DNA of 64,000 bases from Methylobacter sp. (GTDB lineage: Bacteria; Pseudomonadota; Gammaproteobacteria; Methylococcales; Methylomonadaceae), in the NCBI GenBank assembly GCA_030684815.1, contig JAUXXQ010000161.1, positions 1-64,000 on the forward strand, given 5' to 3'. The position numbers and the translations under genes were made by a program. This document shows positions 3,075-61,140 of the stretch, piece after piece; the first letter of the stretch is position 1, and every line of letters starts with the position of its first letter. The notes under the pieces were generated by a model. The model saw only the letters and a list, made by a program, of their open reading frames with translations. It was not told where the DNA came from and did no database searches.

Positions 3075-3917
3075 TTAATCTTCATGTTCGTAACGCCTGC
3101 GTATTGCATCATCGCGGGCGTCGTTGATTTCCCGCATGATGCTGCCCACATCCGCCTGTTTGTCGCTGGCTTGGAATCGGCCGGTCAAGGCCACATCAGG
3201 ATCGAGTTCGGCGCTCTCGTAGAGCTTCCATATTTCTTTGCCATACTGTGTGCTGAGCAGCTCGGGGGCAAAACGGCCAAAATAATCGGCCAGATTATCG
3301 ACATCGCGTTCCAGCATCCGTGCGGCGTTATTGTTTGCCGCCGCATCAACAGCTTGGGGCAGGTCGATAATAACCGGGCCGTCAGCGTCAATCAGGATGT
3401 TGTATTCCGACAGGTCGCCATGCACTAGGCCTGCGCACAGCATCCTGACCACTTCTTTGATCAGCAAGGCGTGGTATTCAAGTGCTTGCTCGCGGCTCAG
3501 TTCAAGGTCATTCAGCCGGGGCGCGGCGTTGCCATGGCCATCGGTAACCAGTTCCATCAGCAACACGCCTTCGACGAAATTATAGGGCTGCGGCACGCGC
3601 ACACCCGCTGCGGCAAGGCGGTACAATGCATCGACTTCGGCATTTTGCCAGACATCTTCCTGCTGTTTGCGCCCAAACCGGGTGTTTTTTTCCATGGCGC
3701 GCGCCTGACGGGTGTTCCGCACTTTACGCCCTTCCTGATACTGCGCCTGTTTGTGGAAGCCGCGTTTGTTAATGTCTTTATAGACTTTGGCGCAACGTAT
3801 TTCGCCTTCAGAAGATACGACGTAAACAGCCGCTTCCTTGCCGCTTTTTAGCGGCCGGATTACCTCGTCAACGAGGCCGTCCCGCACCAGCGGTTCAATA
3901 CTTTTTGGAGTTTTCAT
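3075..3917 (-). CDS. RIO1-family serine/threonine protein kinase
   Basis: A 280-residue bacterial RIO kinase. The N-terminal lobe has the flexible nucleotide loop SGKEAAVYV (25-33) and the invariant Lys44 in CAKVY. The catalytic loop HGDLSEYNI spans 166-174 and the metal-binding Asp185 sits in IIDLPQAVD, the RIO replacement for DFG. The C-terminal tail (230-280) is charged. Bacterial RIO kinases are poorly understood; archaeal and eukaryotic relatives act in small-subunit ribosome maturation, so a translation-linked role is only a guess. The start is ATG 3917, preceded by AAGGAAATTTG; the TTG at 3920 is rejected. The leader, start codon and first codons are shared with feoB (see the repeat at 3909-4108). 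VF530 follows in the same unit. Confidence 0.88.
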
Positions 3918-4108
3918 CAAATTTCCTTGTTGGTCTGAGACCTCTTCCTTCAGGGAGATTCGTTCAAAGTTGACAACGCTGCTTTAGCGTCGTTATCCTT
4001 TCAGCTAACCTCGTTGTTGACGGCGAGGCAATCCACCGACCGCTATCTGTCGATGGATTGTCGTAAGACAAGTCATTCGACAGATAGCGGTCGAGTGTGG
4101 ATTGAAAC
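3909..4108 (-). promoter_or_regulatory. Structured leader repeat, copy A (upstream of RIO kinase)
   Basis: Read on the minus strand, this about 200-base block matches 41802-41999 with roughly 20 substitutions and one short gap by eye. It starts with TTTCAATCCACACTCGACC and ends with the Shine-Dalgarno AAGGAAATTTG, the start codon and two further codons, ATGAAAACT. It contains a perfect 17-bp hairpin (arms 4093-4077 and 4053-4037), a CCTCG/CGAGG stem, an 8-bp stem (3993-3986 with 3980-3973) and a short CTCCCTGAAGG hairpin close to the ribosome site. It may be a mobile or duplicated cis-regulatory RNA. Function unknown. Confidence 0.75.
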
Positions 4109-4244
4109 ATGGCCGCCCTTAGTCGTTGCCTTTAGATAAAAGTTAAAAATTAGCGGCTTTTCTTGATAAATATATTTGATCCGGTAACCGGGGCTATTTT
4201 ACTTTATTTTAGAGGGCTCAAACCAGTCGGCGAAAAAAGCATTT

Positions 4245-17921: not shown

Positions 17922-17998
17922 TGGGGTGAACGACGGGGCTCGAACCCGCGACAACCGGAATCACAATCCGGGACTCTACCAACTGAGCTACGCTCACC
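17922..17998 (-). tRNA. tRNA-His (GTG)
   Basis: A 77-base cloverleaf on the minus strand. The acceptor stem GTGAGCG/CGTTCAC has an extra 5' G (base 17998) opposite discriminator C, the identity element of tRNA-His, and CCA is encoded. Anticodon GTG lies in a 7-base loop between CCGGA and TCCGG. The T-loop is GTTCGAGCC. Confidence 0.97.
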
Positions 17999-18034
17999 AT
18001 AATATGGTGGTGTTAATGTAGGATATTCTATGAA

Positions 18035-18111
18035 TGGCGCGCTTGGCAGGACTCGAACCTGCGACCCCCGGCTTAGAAGGCCGGTGCTCTATCCGGTTGA
18101 GCTACAAGCGC
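18035..18111 (-). tRNA. tRNA-Arg (TCT)
   Basis: A 77-base cloverleaf with acceptor GCGCTTG/CAAGCGC, discriminator G and encoded CCA. The anticodon stem CCGGC/GCCGG encloses CTTCTAA, anticodon TCT, reading AGA and AGG. It lies 36 bases upstream of tRNA-His. Confidence 0.97.
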
Positions 18112-18116
18112 TAAAT

Positions 18117-18193
18117 TGGTCGGGGTAGAGAGATTCGAACTCCCGACATCCTGCTCCCAAAGCAGGCGCGCTACCAAACTGCGCTATACCCCG
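18117..18193 (-). tRNA. tRNA-Pro (TGG)
   Basis: A 77-base cloverleaf with acceptor CGGGGTA/TACCCCG, discriminator A and encoded CCA. The anticodon stem CCTGC/GCAGG encloses TTTGGGA, anticodon TGG. It is the first gene of a Pro-Arg-His cluster, only 5 bases before tRNA-Arg, so the three should be cut from one precursor. Confidence 0.97.
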
Positions 18194-21386: not shown

Positions 21387-21640
21387 CAGCTTTTAGTAAC
21401 TACCCAGCGGAAAAAGAAATAGAACACGGAAAGCACAGATTAGACGGATTTACACGGATTTTTTAAAATAGACCGTGCTTTTAATCAGTGCCATCCGTGT
21501 TCCTTTAGTCATTTTTAACAACGGCTGAGCAGTTACAGCTTTTATTTATCACGAAGCATACGAAGTTTCATTCTTCGTGCTCTTTGTGGCGACAATCTTT
21601 TTACCTGCAAATTAACGTATAATGCCGGTTTTTTATCTGG
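21387..21640. repeat. Two dispersed repeats (ACACGGATT and CACGAAG families)
   Basis: 21419-21515 begins GAACACGGAAAGCACAGATT and ends GTGCCATCCGTGTTCC, an ACACGGATT-type palindromic repeat also present at 60969-61112. 21541-21616 is a CACGAAG-type unit whose right end, GACAATCTTTTTACCTG, is the inverted counterpart of sequence at about 19808-19824. No gene. Confidence 0.7.
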
Positions 21641-25666: not shown

Positions 25667-25690
25667 GGGAAGTTCGTTTTTGAACTAATA

Positions 25691-25770
25691 CTCACGCCTA
25701 TCGTCACACTTGGAAGGGTGCCGGTCTACACTTTGTAGACGGTTTCCAAGCGGGATAGGTGGAGGCGTAA
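25691..25770 (+). promoter_or_regulatory. Structured rpsB leader, probable S2 autoregulatory element
   Basis: CACGCCTATC near the start pairs with GATAGGTGGAGGCG at the end. Inside, CTTGGAA pairs with TTCCAAG, and GTCTACA with TGTAGAC, giving a branched or stacked hairpin just before rpsB. Ribosomal protein S2 is known to repress its own operon through such a leader in proteobacteria; that this is the same element is inferred from position and fold. Confidence 0.65.
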
Positions 25771-25816
25771 CCCAACTCGAAACAGATGTTTCGGATTTTT
25801 TATCTTAGGAGAACAC

Positions 25817-41150: not shown

Positions 41151-41462
41151 ATTCCCTCCTCCACTTAGTGTTAATTTCCACCTGTAGTATCCGTCTTTTA
41201 CATCCATTGTAATTATTCAGACCCTGAGCATATTTCTGGGAATACGGCATTTTGCCCGCAAAAAATGCAACCAAGATGGCTTTTTATCGTTATACACACG
41301 TATCTAATGGCGCCTAATATACAGATATTCCAACCTGGAAGGTCTAACTTGCAACGTTTCGAGCAGGCGGGATATAGACTGAAAATCATCATCAGTGATG
41401 GCTTGGGTAAGCGCACGCGAATCATCCTGTCTAAAACGCTCCCCCGCCATTAAAATTCACAT
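41151..41462. other. Intergenic region with half of a TTCCAGG palindrome
   Basis: No gene. 41332-41356 (AACCTGGAAGGTCTAACTTG) is the right half of the 33-base palindrome found whole at 49880 and 56837, including its flanking TAACTTGCA. Nothing else is recognised. Confidence 0.5.
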
Positions 41463-41562: not shown

Positions 41563-41799
41563 ATGACGACGATAAGCTTAAAAAATCTTGCTGTAGGCGA
41601 TTCGGGCAGGATAGTCGGCTTTGAACAGGCGGGTAAGGCTTACCGTAAGCGCTTGCTGGCGATGGGCTTGACGCCCGGAACCGAGTTTCGTGTGACCCGT
41701 TTTGCACCGATGGGCGATCCTGTTGAAATAAAATTACGCGGATTTTCCTTAACTCTGCGCAAGGATGAAGCGGCCATATTGTTGATAGAGAAACTCTGA
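41563..41799 (+). CDS. feoA: Ferrous iron transport protein A
   Basis: 78 residues, SH3-like fold, with GDSGRIVGFEQAGKAYRKRLLAMGLTPG (in part) typical of FeoA and the PMGDPVEIKLRGFSLTLRKDEA end. It is a small cytoplasmic partner of FeoB. It follows a Fur box directly. Unusually, feoB does not follow at once: a 191-base structured leader repeat lies between. Confidence 0.95.
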   Translation: MTTISLKNLAVGDSGRIVGFEQAGKAYRKRLLAMGLTPGTEFRVTRFAPMGDPVEIKLRGFSLTLRKDEAAILLIEKL

Positions 41800-41801
41800 T
41801 A

Positions 41802-41999
41802 TTTCAATCCACACTCGACCTCATCTGCCAAATGACTTGTCTTACGACAATCCATCGACAGAGGGAGGCCGGTGGATTGCCTCGCCGTAAACGACGAGGT
41901 TACTTGAAAGGATAACGATGCTAAAGCAGCGTTGTCAACGTTGAACGAATCTCCCTGAAGGGAGGGATCTCAAACCAACAAGGAAATTTGATGAAAACT
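41802..41999 (+). promoter_or_regulatory. Structured leader repeat, copy B (upstream of feoB)
   Basis: Counterpart of 3909-4108. It starts with TTTCAATCCACACTCGACC three bases after the feoA stop and ends with AAGGAAATTTG and ATGAAAACT, so the feoB ribosome site, start codon and next two codons belong to the repeat. The 8-bp stem 41915-41922/41928-41935 keeps pairing relative to copy A by a C-to-T change opposite G; the CCTCG/CGAGG stem and CTCCCTGAAGGGAG hairpin are kept, the large 17-bp hairpin of copy A is degenerate here. Confidence 0.75.
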
Positions 42000-44339
42000 G
42001 ATTTTATCGTGGGCGTGGTCGGCAACCCGAATTGCGGCAAGACAACTTTATTTAATGCATTAACTGGCGCACGGCAGCATGTCGGCAACTGGCCCGGCGT
42101 TACCGTCGAGAAAAAAACCGGTGAATACAGCTTTGGCCATAAGCTCATCGAATTGGTCGATTTGCCCGGCACGTATTCGCTCGAAGCCGCTGACGATCAG
42201 GTGTCTTTAGATGAAAAAGTCGCCCGCGATTATGTCGCCTCCCAGCAGGCCGATTTAATCATTAACATCGTCGACGCCTCCAATCTGGAGCGTAATCTCT
42301 ACCTGACTTCGCAATTGATTGAGATGCGCGTGCCGATGATTTTGGTGCTCAACATGATGGATGCGGTCAAACAGCGCGGCATTAAAATCGACCTCGCTTT
42401 CCTTGAGCACTTGCTGGGCTGCCCGGTTATTCCTATTACCGCCTCAACTAAAGGCGGTATCGATGCGCTAAAAGCGGCGATCAATAGCGCCGCCATCAGC
42501 AAGCCGATTCCTTCGGTCAAAATCAGCTATGTTGATGCACTGGAACAAGCCGTCGATGAACTTTCGCCGCTATTGACCGAAACCGCACGGCAGCACCCTT
42601 GCGATTTGCGCTGGCTGGCGTTGCGCGCACTGGAAGACGACACCCTGGCCAAGCAGATTGCAGGAAGCGCATGGCTGCCGATAATTGTCGCCTTGCAGCG
42701 GCGGGTCGAAGCGGAAACCAATGATGAAATAGACATACTCGCCGCCGATGCCCGTTACGGCTTCGTCAATGAATTGACCAACGGCGCGGTGTGCAAACTT
42801 AATGAAGTGAGCCGTCACGTCACTGAAAAAATCGACAACATCGTGCTCAATCGCTTCCTGGGCATCCCGATATTTTTGCTGGTGATGTACGCGATGTTTA
42901 TGTTCACCATTAATATAGGCAGCGCCTTCGTCGATTTTTTCGACCAGACCGTTGGCGCCTTATTAATTGATGGTTTAGGTCAGGTACTCACCGCGCAACA
43001 TTGGCCGGAATGGTTAATTGTATTAATCACTAGCGGCGTCGGCGGCGGCATTCAGGTGGTCGCCACCTTTGTCCCGATTGTCGGTTTTTTGTTTATGTTT
43101 TTGTCGGCACTGGAAGATTCGGGTTACATGGCCAGGGCGGCATTTGTCATGGACAGATTCATGCGCATGATCGGCTTGCCGGGCAAATCTTTCGTGCCTA
43201 TGATTGTCGGTTTCGGTTGCAACGTCCCGGCGATTATGGCGACACGGACACTGGAAAATCAGCGCGACCGCATCCTGACCAACCTGATGAACCCGTTTAT
43301 GTCCTGCGGCGCCCGCTTGCCGGTTTACGCCTTGTTTGCCGCTGCATTCTTTCCGGTCGGCGGCCAGAATCTGGTGTTCGGCTTATATTTGTTGGGCATT
43401 GCGGTTGCGGTGTTGACCGGTTTAATCATGCGCCATACCTTATTTAAAGGCGAATCGGCGCCGTTTATCATGGAATTGCCCGCTTACCACATGCCGACAG
43501 CGAGCGGCGTTTTTATCCGAACTTGGGATAGGCTCAAATCGTTTTTGTTCAACGCAGGCAAAGTCATCGTACCGATGGTGTTAGTGCTTAATTTCTTAAA
43601 CGCGTTGGGAACGGACGGCAGTTTCGGCCAGGAAAACAGCAACCAATCGGTGCTAAGTGAGATTGGCCGCAGCCTGACGCCCGCGTTTAAACCAATGGGC
43701 ATAGAAAAAGACAACTGGCCGGCCACGGTGGGGATTTTCACCGGGGTGTTAGCCAAAGAAGCGGTGGTCGGAACTTTAGATGCACTGTACAGCCAGATGG
43801 CGGCGACCGGCACAAACGCCGATGATGCAGCGCCGTTCGATCTTGCCCAGGCCTTGATCGACGCCTGTCTGACCGTGCCGGAAAATTTACGCGCAGTGGC
43901 CGACAATCTGCTCGACCCGCTCGGGCTGAATATCGGCAGTGTCGATGATCTTGATGCCGCCGCCACCGAGCAGGCCGTCAATACCGGCACCTTTACTGCG
44001 ATGCAGTTGAGTTTTGATGGCAAAGCCGGAGCCTTTGCCTATTTGTTGTTCATTTTGCTGTACGCGCCGTGTGTAGCGGCAACAGCGGCCATCTATCGGG
44101 AAACCAACAGGAACTGGACGCTGTTTGTGCTGTTCTGGACGACCGGCATTGCCTACATGACGGCCACCATTTTTTATCAATCGATGACCTATGCCCGGCA
44201 TCCCGAGTATTCCCTGGTCTGGATCAGCGGCTTGATTATTGCCTTTTTAGCAGTGTTGTTCGTGCTATGGCTGCTCGGTAAAAACACCGATGCGACCGAC
44301 GTCAAACAAGGCCGGGAGTCGCTCCGTGATTCTGTCTGA
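41991..44339 (+). CDS. feoB: Ferrous iron transporter FeoB
   Basis: 782 residues. N-terminal G domain: P-loop GNPNCGKTT, DLPGTYS and the NMMD guanine motif; helical spacer; then about 8-10 TM helices in two gate regions (including FVPMIVGFGCNVPAIMATRTL with its conserved Cys, and the second gate around FTGVLAKEAVVGTLDALY). It takes Fe(II) across the inner membrane. Start ATG 41991 is fixed by AAGGAAATTTG; TTG 41988 is rejected. Its end overlaps the feoC-like gene by 14 bases. Confidence 0.96.
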   Translation: MKTDFIVGVVGNPNCGKTTLFNALTGARQHVGNWPGVTVEKKTGEYSFGHKLIELVDLPGTYSLEAADDQVSLDEKVARDYVASQQADLIINIVDASNLERNLYLTSQLIEMRVPMILVLNMMDAVKQRGIKIDLAFLEHLLGCPVIPITASTKGGIDALKAAINSAAISKPIPSVKISYVDALEQAVDELSPLLTETARQHPCDLRWLALRALEDDTLAKQIAGSAWLPIIVALQRRVEAETNDEIDILAADARYGFVNELTNGAVCKLNEVSRHVTEKIDNIVLNRFLGIPIFLLVMYAMFMFTINIGSAFVDFFDQTVGALLIDGLGQVLTAQHWPEWLIVLITSGVGGGIQVVATFVPIVGFLFMFLSALEDSGYMARAAFVMDRFMRMIGLPGKSFVPMIVGFGCNVPAIMATRTLENQRDRILTNLMNPFMSCGARLPVYALFAAAFFPVGGQNLVFGLYLLGIAVAVLTGLIMRHTLFKGESAPFIMELPAYHMPTASGVFIRTWDRLKSFLFNAGKVIVPMVLVLNFLNALGTDGSFGQENSNQSVLSEIGRSLTPAFKPMGIEKDNWPATVGIFTGVLAKEAVVGTLDALYSQMAATGTNADDAAPFDLAQALIDACLTVPENLRAVADNLLDPLGLNIGSVDDLDAAATEQAVNTGTFTAMQLSFDGKAGAFAYLLFILLYAPCVAATAAIYRETNRNWTLFVLFWTTGIAYMTATIFYQSMTYARHPEYSLVWISGLIIAFLAVLFVLWLLGKNTDATDVKQGRESLRDSV

Positions 44340-49656: not shown

Positions 49657-50023
49657 CAGCAGGTGAAAGGTACACGGCGAAAGGTTTATCGTTCCTATGT
49701 TACAGCGTTATCGTTCCCACGCTCCAGCGTGGAAATGCATCCGGCAACGCTCCAGCGTTGCGAAAGTGGGGTGCTCTTTCGTACCCACGCGCCGCGCCCA
49801 TCTTTATACATAAGTATTTACGGGCTGTCGTGATTCCGAAGATTCTTGTCTGGCGTAACCATGAAACAGGCCGATATGCAGACCTTCCAGGTTTTAAAAA
49901 CCTGGAAGGTCTAACTTGCAGCGCTCTGAATAGTGGGCTGTTGCAGTATGTGTATAACGACGGGCGTACTGCGAGGGAACGCATACCAGGCGCGCCGCGC
50001 CAAGAATTTCAGCCGCAGCGATC
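49657..50023. other. Repeat-filled gap between argJ and the Nudix-ThiE gene
   Basis: No gene. 49709-49760 has stacked palindromic units (CCCACGCTCCAGCGTGG, CAACGCTCCAGCGTTG). 49880-49912 is the 33-base palindrome AGACCTTCCAGG...CCTGGAAGGTCT with flanks TGC and AACTTGCA. Further GCGCGCC-type repeat sequence runs on to about 50085, inside the 5' end of the next frame. Confidence 0.75.
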
Positions 50024-52707: not shown

Positions 52708-52811
52708 ATTGTTTGTTTCTGTTCGGCCTTCATGTAGTTTTGCTAAAGATTATCGGGCTTAATCTATAGAAGGTTGTGCTGATTTAAATAGTGTCATTGA
52801 GAATTCACATT

Positions 52812-54410
52812 ATGAACAAAGACGAATTACAGGCCATCAGAAAACGGGTGTTTGAGTTAACAGTCACCAATGCCACCGGGTCGGATTTGGATGTGATGCT
52901 TAAACATGTATTTGCGCTATTGCGCGACTACCGCGATTTGCCGTTACAACAGCAAGGTGCGGTGTTGCTGCTGAATCCGCGAGGGCGTTATTTTCAAGTC
53001 GCGCAATTTGGTATGGCGCCGGCCTGGGAAGGTAATTTGTGCTGGGATGCTGGCGTTTTTGCTTCGTCGCTGATTGCAACAGGCTGCCGGGTTGAAACAG
53101 TGCCGCTGTTTCATGGCGAAGAGCGCAAGCGGCCGCAGCGTTTATTTCTGTTGCCGCTGTGTATTGGTAACCAAGGCATCGGCTACGCAGCTTTTTTTGT
53201 GCCGTTTGATTATCAACCCTCAGCGGCTCATGTCGATTTTATGGACGATTTGGCCTATGTCCTGTCCGGCTTGGTTCATCGCGTACTCACTAATGAAACA
53301 TTGCGCATCCGCGAGCTGGAGTTGGAAGAAGCCCGCGCCGATGCGATCCGCAACTTGGGCATAGCCTCGGAATACCGGGACAACGACACTGGCTGGCATA
53401 TCATGCGCATGACCAATTATGCGCAGGCGATTGCCAAAGCGCTCGGTTTGCCAGCGGATCAGCGCGAATTGCTGTATGTGACCGCACCGATGCATGACGT
53501 CGGCAAAATCGGCATTGCCGATGCAGTCTTGCTCAAGCCGGGCAAGCTGACTGAGGAAGAATTTGAAATCATGAAAACGCACACCCATATCGGCGTGTCG
53601 ATTTTGACCGGCAATGATGCGATGAATGCCGCCGCGCGCGATATTGCCGGTTCGCATCATGAGCGTTGGGATGGCGCCGGTTATCCAGAAGGCCTGGTGG
53701 GCGAAAAAATCCCGATTTTGGCGCGCATTTGTTCAGTGGCTGATGTTTTCGATGCACTGACTTCGGTACGCCCCTATAAAAAAGCATGGACAGTCGAGGA
53801 GGCAACTGCCTGGGTGATTGCCGAATCCGGCAAGCATTTCGATCCGGCCATCGTGACCGCTTTTCAGGCCGCCATGCCGGAAATCTTACGCATACGCGAA
53901 CTGTACCGTGACGATATTATCGATCCCAAACAAGTGTTGACCTTGCCGCCGGTTGAACCGAGGGACGATGTGTGGGCACCCTGGGATGACTCGTTGCGTG
54001 TGGGCATTGATGTCATCGATGAGCATCATCGTTACCTATTTGATTTAATTAATGATTTGTACGATGTGGTGGTCAATAAACTCGGCGCACGCGAAGTGGC
54101 GCGCTTGATCAAGGCCTTGGATGCCTATGCCAAAGTGCATTTCCGCAGTGAAGAACTGATGATGGCGCATTACAACTATGAAGGCATCGGCCGCCAGGAG
54201 CATCAGCACCACGCATTTGAAACAAAAATCTGCGAGTTTTACCAAGAACTGCACGACAACCCCTTAGTCGCCCAATTCGATGTCTTATCTTATTTGCGCG
54301 ATTGGCTAGTGAAACACATCCTGTTCGATGTCTTATCTTATTTGCGCGATTGGCTAGTGAAACACATCCTGGTTGAAGACTTCCAGCTGCGTTCATTAGT
54401 CGGTATTTGA
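52812..54410 (+). CDS. HD-GYP phosphodiesterase with N-terminal GAF-like and C-terminal hemerythrin domains
   Basis: 532 residues from ATG 52812. Positions about 20-160 resemble a GAF sensor. The HD-GYP domain (about 185-360) has His196, HDVGKIG (228-234), LLKPGKLTEEE, and HHERWDGAGYP (282-292), so it should hydrolyse cyclic-di-GMP. The C-terminal bacteriohemerythrin (about 395-525) has DEHH (403-406), HFRSEE (443-448) and a His cluster 464-467; it may sense O2 or NO through a di-iron site. The last helix, FDVLSYLRDWLVKHIL, occurs twice (489-504 and 505-520) through a perfect 48-bp duplication. ATG 52812 fits better than the upstream in-frame start 52791. Confidence 0.9.
   Translation: MNKDELQAIRKRVFELTVTNATGSDLDVMLKHVFALLRDYRDLPLQQQGAVLLLNPRGRYFQVAQFGMAPAWEGNLCWDAGVFASSLIATGCRVETVPLFHGEERKRPQRLFLLPLCIGNQGIGYAAFFVPFDYQPSAAHVDFMDDLAYVLSGLVHRVLTNETLRIRELELEEARADAIRNLGIASEYRDNDTGWHIMRMTNYAQAIAKALGLPADQRELLYVTAPMHDVGKIGIADAVLLKPGKLTEEEFEIMKTHTHIGVSILTGNDAMNAAARDIAGSHHERWDGAGYPEGLVGEKIPILARICSVADVFDALTSVRPYKKAWTVEEATAWVIAESGKHFDPAIVTAFQAAMPEILRIRELYRDDIIDPKQVLTLPPVEPRDDVWAPWDDSLRVGIDVIDEHHRYLFDLINDLYDVVVNKLGAREVARLIKALDAYAKVHFRSEELMMAHYNYEGIGRQEHQHHAFETKICEFYQELHDNPLVAQFDVLSYLRDWLVKHILFDVLSYLRDWLVKHILVEDFQLRSLVGI
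54276..54371 (+). repeat. Perfect 48-bp tandem duplication within the hemerythrin domain
   Basis: 54276-54323 and 54324-54371 are identical, starting TTCGATGTCTTATC and ending AAACACATCCTG. The unit is in frame (16 codons). Confidence 0.98.
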
Positions 54411-56779: not shown

Positions 56780-56872
56780 AGTTATCACCACGAAGGGCGC
56801 GAATAATAGGTTGCTTATTGCGCGTCAAAGCGAGTTAGACCTTCCAGGTTTTTAAAACCTGGAAGGTCTGCA
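56780..56872. repeat. CACGAAG repeat and 33-base TTCCAGG palindrome
   Basis: 56783-56808 is a CACCACGAAGGGCGCGAATAA repeat fragment (first 20 bases match the family). 56837-56869 is the palindrome AGACCTTCCAGG...CCTGGAAGGTCT; with its flanks GTT and GCAG it is the exact reverse complement of the copy at 49880-49912. Confidence 0.8.
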
Positions 56873-60966: not shown

Positions 60967-61140
60967 ATGATAGGACACGGAGCGCACGGATTAGACGGAT
61001 TTACACGGATTTTTTTATATTGAGATTGCAGTCTACAAGCCGAGTCTTGGAGCCTGTTATGTGTTTTCAAATCCGTTCTTATCCATTTAACCCGGTGCCA
61101 TCCGTGTTCCACATTTTTCTTTGTGCAAAATAGTTTTTAA
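60967..61140. repeat. ACACGGATT-family repeat between alaC and hom
   Basis: Starts GGACACGGAGCGCACGGATT (60971 on) with GATTTACACGGATT, and ends GTGCCATCCGTGTTCC (about 61097-61112), the same ends as 21419-21515 but with a different, longer middle. The ends are inverted and could form a long hairpin. Confidence 0.7.

Follow-up and report, generated by a model that had tools for sequence, protein, structure and literature searches.

A small dispersed element of Methylococcales methanotrophs inserted immediately upstream of ATNAA, often at native start codons

Introduction

In a stretch of 64,000 nucleotides from a Methylobacter genome (referred to as the window throughout), an initial annotation had noticed a repeat of about 200 bases before the starts of a RIO kinase gene and of feoB. 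The question raised by this locus is how one and the same leader came to stand before two such genes, and two readings had been offered, either a cis-acting RNA (riboswitch, thermometer or sRNA target) or else a mobile element by which a start of translation is supplied. We followed the repeat through the source genome and its relatives and compared occupied with empty sites.

Results

The two copies of the window

BLAST and alignment confirmed both places of the repeat and gave 91% identity between the copies, and Pfam agreed with the two downstream genes (Table 1). The ends of the copies had been placed nearly correctly; the element starts three bases earlier, with ATG or ATA before TTTC, and in the feoB copy the left ATG is mutated to ATA. 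The start codon, which had been counted as part of the shared 3' end, lies outside the element, the ATGAA after ...AAATTTG being a pre-existing target. Both copies are directly followed by ATGAAAACT, and the long distal hairpin, described as perfect in one copy only, proved in the alignment to be special to the RIO kinase copy.

Table 1. Coordinates of the element copies, their targets, downstream genes and hairpins in the window.
Feature	Position	Strand	Evidence or remark
Element copy 5' of RIO kinase	3918..4110	-	BLAST and alignment; empty sites in relatives; left ATG at 4110-4108, 3' end ...AAGGAAATTTG
Target pentamer ATGAA, native RIO kinase start	3913..3917	-	in 11/11 empty sites shown
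Shine-Dalgarno-like AAGGA in RIO kinase copy	3924..3928	-	sequence
RIO kinase gene	3075..3917	-	Pfam RIO1 7.2e-45
Element copy 5' of feoB	41799..41990	+	BLAST; site unoccupied in 12 relatives
Target pentamer ATGAA, native feoB start	41991..41995	+	overlaps feoA stop in relatives
Shine-Dalgarno-like AAGGA in feoB copy, 6 bases 5' of ATG	41980..41984	+	sequence
feoB	41991..44339	+	Pfam FeoB_N 5.4e-67, Gate, FeoB_C
Hairpin H1 (CAATCCAC...GTGGATTG, long interrupted upper stem)	41805..41879	+	helices 1 and 2: 91.6 and 93.2% paired, 42 copies
Hairpin H2 (CCTCG...CGAGG)	41880..41899	+	helix 3: two-sided changes in 5/7 pairs
Hairpin H3 (GATAACGATGC...GCAGCGTTGTC)	41911..41936	+	helix 4: two-sided changes in 5/11 pairs
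Hairpin H4 (TCTCCC...GGGAGG)	41950..41965	+	helix 5: two-sided changes in 4/6 pairs

A dispersed family of the Methylococcales

A genome search with BLAST and a covariance model placed the two window copies in a large dispersed family. With the feoB copy as query, 46 BLAST matches at E ≤ 1 were obtained in the 4.29-Mb source genome, which is far above chance expectation; some two dozen are nearly full-length. The family is a small non-coding element of about 170-215 nt found in Methylococcales methanotrophs, dispersed and missing from the same sites in relatives. Both its 5' end, (AT)GTTTCAATCCAC, and its 3' end recur from copy to copy, and it contains four or five hairpins in a row. In most near-full-length matches the 3' end ...AAGGAAATTTGATGAA leads into an open frame starting with M-K or M-N. 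Several old copies lack the 5' hairpins. Among eight remnants of the source genome that consist of the 3' part only, five adjoin frames of at least 100 codons (L143-L146, L151) and three do not (L147, L149, L150); the genes at such remnants resemble, among others, an epimerase, a DnaJ-like protein and a glycosyltransferase, as read from the translations.

By BLAST the element was present in eight of 60 relatives, all of the same genus (nine of 61 with the source genome), and five genomes including the source genome were multi-copy among the matches listed. In four relatives the covariance model matched 57, 42, 12 and 16 times, some of these matches being weak or representing both strands of one place; across the order it matched 31 of 251 genomes, from nine of 48 genera. 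A core pattern of 28 positions, 23 of them fixed, matched 34 stretches in a scan of 84,980 named species, all of them in Methylobacter, Methylovulum, Methylocucumis or metagenome-assembled 'Methylococcales bacterium'. Methylobacter tundripaludum SV96 is among the species matched, and Methylobacter sp. LH_M5 is one of the multi-copy genomes. Viral contigs (scanned with a 27-position pattern), plasmids and phages gave no match to the element, and a limited literature search revealed no description of it nor of any other mobile element abutting start codons.

Empty sites in relatives

For 14 loci of the source genome, we fused the two flanks as if the element were missing and looked for the resulting joint in genomes of the same genus. 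Eight loci were clean at a native ATG|AA, four showed 11-20 extra upstream bases in the relatives and two were unclear. At feoB (12 relatives shown), hypD (6), fabD (9) and the M3 peptidase gene (3) the relatives carried an uninterrupted native ATG|AA, with a junction free of loss or gain; some fabD rows contained small indels farther upstream, and in one genome (G009) the match to the hypD joint was split in two. Clean empty sites were likewise found for the RIO kinase (11 relatives), L024 (5), L018 (4) and L010 (4); here, too, some rows have small indels, located ahead of the ATG. For the RIO kinase, ten of the 11 sites read ..GGGCGGC(C/T)|ATGAA and the one at L119 ..GGGCTGTT|ATGAA; for feoB, nine read ..TGATG|AAAACT and three ..TAATG|AAAACT, the feoA stop overlapping the feoB start, so that the insertion pushed feoA and feoB apart by about 190 bases. 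Since ten of 11 RIO kinase sites and 12 of 12 feoB sites show it, the continuation ATGAAAACT is native in both genes; the sole exception among the RIO kinase sites shown (L118) reads ATGAAAATT.

At the four loci with extra bases (L011, L008, L025 and L026, the readings at L008 and L026 coming from one relative each) the relatives keep, before the ATG, 11-20 more bases that include the native ribosome site, and the left end of the element is intact. The ambiguous readings concern L016 and L017; by frame length L016 is not a gene start and L011 a doubtful one. We also searched 14 sites away from gene starts, six of which had a readable spanning empty site: the native junction was ATCAA at L214 and L245, ATAAA or ATCAA at L217, where two further relatives differ at the junction, and ATGAA at L248, L220 and L249. 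Of the others, L223 and L226 were ambiguous, five had no spanning site and L206 was left out.

Because the empty sites of relatives show insertion directly before native starts, the reading as a mobile element that supplies a start context was essentially right. A riboswitch, thermometer or sRNA target is disfavoured. The ATG is native, and what the element contributes is the sequence upstream of it, with a stretch that resembles a ribosome site.

Target sequence and junctions

The element ATGTTTCAATCC...AAGGAAATTTG inserts immediately 5' of native ATNAA, mostly ATGAA. Within a set of 82 distinct sites, derived from 98 fetched copies, the right junction was ATGAA in 68, ATAAA in four, ATCAA in three, ATGAG in two and odd in five, and the base preceding AT was unconstrained (A 20, G 15, C 13, T 13). 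The seven copies at ATCAA or ATAAA carried ATG at the left end in five cases and ATA in one, and in one the end was lost. As five of these seven kept a left ATG, the left G belongs to the element and is not copied from the target, and the idea that the whole start codon is duplicated was dropped. According to these junctions the element stands directly before ATNAA or, equivalently, the exchange takes place at the AT dinucleotide. The ends ATGTTTCAATCC and CAAATTTCC are not inverted copies of each other and a duplication comprises at most AT; at start and non-start empty sites alike, there was no target duplication beyond what the junction accounts for, and insertion was next to a short fixed sequence (ATNAA/TTNAT).

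Relation to gene starts

A site was counted as a gene start if the adjoining frame had 100 codons or met no stop before the fetched DNA ended. By this frame-length rule, 42 of the 82 distinct sites were gene starts, 36 were not and four were ambiguous (18, 3 and 1 in the source genome; 24, 33 and 3 in other genomes). As background served the 50 ORFs of the one 64-kb window, in which ATGAA occurs at 12 ORF starts and at 30 non-coding positions, i.e., 12/42 or about 29% at starts. The corresponding figure for the element was 42/65 ATGAA sites (p = 2e-9, three ambiguous sites excluded). ATGAA was also favoured among the non-start sites (23/36). The enrichment at starts could result from a targeting preference or from longer survival or retention of such copies.

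Among 31 distant copies, of which L343 and L363 belong to the same genus, 16 adjoined frames of at least 100 codons and half did not; the 16 include two pairs representing the same gene in two genomes, and L339 and L354 have open frames cut by the contig end. The genes behind the long frames include those for a TrpB-like protein, shikimate kinase and again the M3 peptidase. For feoB, hypD, fabD, the M3 peptidase gene, the RIO kinase gene and three more, the empty sites identify the abutting ATG as the native start. Eight downstream genes assigned by Pfam (FeoB, RIO, HypD, FabD-like, M3 peptidase, RapZ, TrpB-like PALP and shikimate kinase) have eight unrelated functions and no common pathway, which argues against a regulatory RNA copied to a set of genes, as do the 36 sites away from starts.

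The M3 peptidase start is occupied in three genomes by copies of different subfamilies (L012 in G000, L048 in G002 and L337 in G220), and three relatives are shown to be empty there; it is perhaps a recurrent target. Repeated occupancy was also seen at batD-like genes, read from translations (L023, L053).

The ribosome-site-like 3' end

Subfamily A ends with AACAAGGAAATTTG and carries AAGGA six bases 5' of the ATG at 19/21 start and 10/12 non-start sites. In subfamily B, AAGGA was found at 11/21 start and 6/24 non-start sites (p = 0.07), and the end is often GCGAAGAAATTTG, a poor Shine-Dalgarno sequence; in other subfamilies this position is occupied by AAGGTATTTCG and AAGGAACAAG. The ribosome-site stretch of subfamily A differed little in conservation, with 3/231 changes at starts and 3/121 elsewhere. 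Judged from its sequence and spacing, the putative ribosome site borne by the element would serve the target's own ATG. A coding role for the frame opened by the left ATG was discarded: in 20 subfamily-A copies it runs for 37 codons after the ATG, in 38 subfamily-B copies it stops after 16, and it is hence not conserved. A scan for a sense promoter inside the element gave only two matches, both on the minus strand.

Hairpins and covariation

The RIO kinase copy folded with a z-score of -6.8 and a sister copy (L003) with one of -4.5, none of 200 shuffles being as stable in either case. A structure of 47 pairs was applied to 42 copies of several subfamilies and was formed in 90.8% of the cells, a figure by which it is favoured, since it was set by hand and drawn from one sequence of the set. 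Two-sided changes occurred in 20 of the 47 pairs, many of them tracking the subfamily split; none of 500 shuffles reached this number, and slid controls yielded at most 14 pairs and 19 cells, compared to 20 and 69 for the actual structure. The covariation that the initial annotation had proposed to look for is thus present. The RNAalifold consensus of 24 close copies was weaker, with 31 pairs and two-sided changes in three.

This strong covariation would suit a regulatory RNA, as would the wobble pairs of the sense strand: pair 122-143 in H3 is U-G in 37/42 copies, and no pair is mainly A-C. Constraint on an RNA should, however, favour G-U, and with the wobble positions excluded A-C departures exceed G-T departures in start copies (101 vs 69), as they do in non-start copies (124 vs 56). 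Absolute stem divergence was alike at starts and elsewhere (0.045 vs 0.042 in subfamily A, 0.106 vs 0.099 in B), which again speaks against retention for regulation. The unpaired bases were more diverged in start copies, so that the stems are relatively better kept there; the pooled interaction of stem and unpaired positions gave p = 0.062 for subfamily A and 0.019 for B, a point in favour of a regulatory RNA, and five of six within-genome comparisons had the same direction, none below 0.06. The structure is probably needed chiefly by the moving lineage, and resident copies may be under some constraint; a mild constraint on the stems at starts, if real, would go beyond what the mobile-element reading needs.

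Candidates for mobilization

No autonomous copy and no transposase with element ends was found among the loci sampled. Y1, reverse transcriptase and TnpB loci (20 each) were tried as hosts of the element ends with 0/60 positive, in fragmented assemblies that contain further Y1 and TnpB matches beyond this sample; at the TnpB loci L271 and L273 an element copy lies nearby and does not form the ends of the TnpB unit. The Y1 domain (PF01797) occurs in 18/19 genomes of the genus, carriers and non-carriers alike; the source genome encodes an IS200-like Y1 protein. TnpB was detected in 7/19 genomes, namely the five multi-copy carriers, G017 and the non-carrier G005, and four of the 12 TnpB-free genomes (G007, G012, G014 and G020) have one or two element copies. 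Reverse transcriptase domains are present in 15/19 genomes of the genus.

Other candidates were rejected. A 30-nt hairpin similarity to group II introns (E = 0.008) was not borne out by Rfam, in which the feoB copy matched no group II domain, although introns of the genus do score. Classical MITEs of DDE transposases have terminal inverted repeats and duplicate several bases of their target; the element has no terminal inverted repeats and duplicates at most AT. Composite copies in a cobalamin operon of G016 were considered as an autonomous form, and no transposase was seen among the ORFs listed. These composites, 300-base units of two copies each (L265, 2734-3042 and 4846-5154), occur twice at 99% identity, 2.1 kb apart, among ORFs reading like cobalamin-synthesis genes, and joint movement or gene conversion is possible.

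Discussion

Relatives without the element have empty sites that show insertion 5' of native ATNAA, and the repeat is probably a non-autonomous mobile element that often lands before start codons and brings a ribosome site at its 3' end; a riboswitch is unlikely. Many ATGAA targets are native starts, and the element therefore comes to lie in sense orientation, abutting the coding sequence. In subfamily A and several others the 3' end would act as a Shine-Dalgarno sequence at the right distance and serve the target ATG. Landing on a start codon would then move the native ribosome site about 200 nt away without silencing the gene, and start-codon copies, or just their 3' part, could persist. As a guess, the hairpins may be required for mobilization, and the most likely mobilizer would be a single-strand transposase of the IS200/IS605 type, supplied in trans and using the antisense strand (TTNAT, then the element). 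This possible route fits the target logic.

Insertion at a gene start is usually damaging. In this family, which reaches dozens of copies in some genomes, empty sites reveal insertion directly before native starts, and the junction often offers a ready-made ribosome site. Should this be confirmed, it would be a safe-landing strategy of a bacterial mobile element, by which unrelated genes of iron transport, hydrogenase maturation and fatty-acid synthesis gain the same new leader and operon partners such as feoA and feoB are separated. The occupied and empty sites also represent natural before-and-after pairs for the effect of a structured leader of 200 nt on expression.

Whether the element is adapted to start codons, by its preference for ATGAA and its built-in ribosome site, so that each landing would replace the initiation region of a gene and not destroy it, and genomes would in time be furnished with element-derived ribosome sites, is a tentative proposal to which we give slightly less than an even chance. 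The opposite case is a selfish miniature element of the usual kind, whose ATNAA target covers starts by coincidence, whose ribosome-like end is accidental and whose copies at starts simply survive. This would account for the 36 of 82 sites away from starts, for the preference for ATGAA even there and for the many subfamily-B copies devoid of AAGGA; it seems unlikely, as AAGG or a near variant recurs at the same distance across several subfamilies and genera, 5/8 remnants keep the 3' part at long frames, and sites at starts are enriched.

The same element might also move by other routes. Target-primed reverse transcription of an RNA copy, its 3' end paired to TTNAT, by a reverse transcriptase of the group II intron type, is somewhat less likely still. 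It would agree with the wobble pairs of the sense strand, with the reverse transcriptase domains in most genomes of the genus and with the exact right junction, the left one being shifted upstream at four loci with loss of target and an intact element end. However, two multi-copy genomes, G008 (99% complete) and G022 (86%), gave no RVT_1 match, and an informal look at the inspected copies revealed no recent 5'-truncated one apart from cases of contig ends and internal deletions. For a site-specific recombinase with an AT core dinucleotide, in the style of IS110 or IS607, the junction arithmetic fits, with AT on either side of the element and a single AT in the empty site, but the right-hand NAA preference demands an extra recognition, and we regard this route as improbable. 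Lowest of all we rank a regulatory RNA acting in cis (riboswitch, thermometer or sRNA target), portable enough to be copied to a gene set and kept for regulation, a very doubtful reading in view of the gene and divergence data above, of the old copies without 5' hairpins and of Rfam, which gave no gathering-score match at either window copy and, with the feoB copy, no match even at E values as high as 10.

The probable mobile element shares features with several known systems. MITEs, REP/REPIN and ERIC sequences are short, intergenic, hairpin-rich, non-coding and of high copy number, features that the element shares; to our knowledge none of them abuts native start codons through its target site. 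Members of the IS200/IS605 family lack terminal inverted repeats, have subterminal hairpins and use an asymmetric short target on one strand, to which their orientation is fixed. The element matches these features, with TTNAT as target, and its antisense strand, TTNAT followed by CAAA and a CTTCAGG hairpin, resembles the left ends of the family; in the same genomes, the ends of TnpB copies carry CCTTCAGG/CCTTTAGG hairpins that are H4-like by eye. It differs in being gene-free, in its conserved inner hairpins H2 and H3, in a wobble bias that points to the other strand, and in that no Y1 or TnpB copy with element ends occurred among the sampled loci; moreover, four of 14 source-genome loci additionally lack 11-20 nt of target DNA.

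REP2 reportedly contains a promoter and a ribosome site and ends at start codons. REP2/CREN of Neisseria meningitidis is a dispersed repeat of about 150 bp preceding genes such as nhba (PMC9031163), and in standing ahead of genes it is like the element described here. The cited passages do not deal with REP2 mobility. Compared by description, the present element is set apart by demonstrated empty sites, by its ATNAA target, by its many copies away from starts and by several hairpins that covary.

Other sequence features

Besides the element, the window contains near-identical 33-base palindromes (AGACCTTCCAGGTT..AACCTGGAAGGTCT) at 49880-49912 and 56837-56869, located in 50-base repeats, and a third, partial one at 41332. 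The same palindrome motif occurs inside a second small insert (GCTATCA[AC]TTAAC...GGGAAGCC) that interrupts the element copies L140 and L141. A dispersed repeat of 54 bases with ACACGGATT text is found at 21419-21472 and 60970-61023 (87% identical), and similar text was seen by eye beside the element copy L014. The ORF at 52791-54410 includes an exact tandem duplication of 48 bases, or 16 codons (54276-54371). A t44 RNA (Rfam RF00127) at 25673-25771 and three tRNAs at 17925-18193 are ordinary. Finally, a CRISPR-like repeat in L278 (about 500-562), presumably of type I-C, starts with GTTTCAATCCAC, 12 bases identical to the left end of the element.
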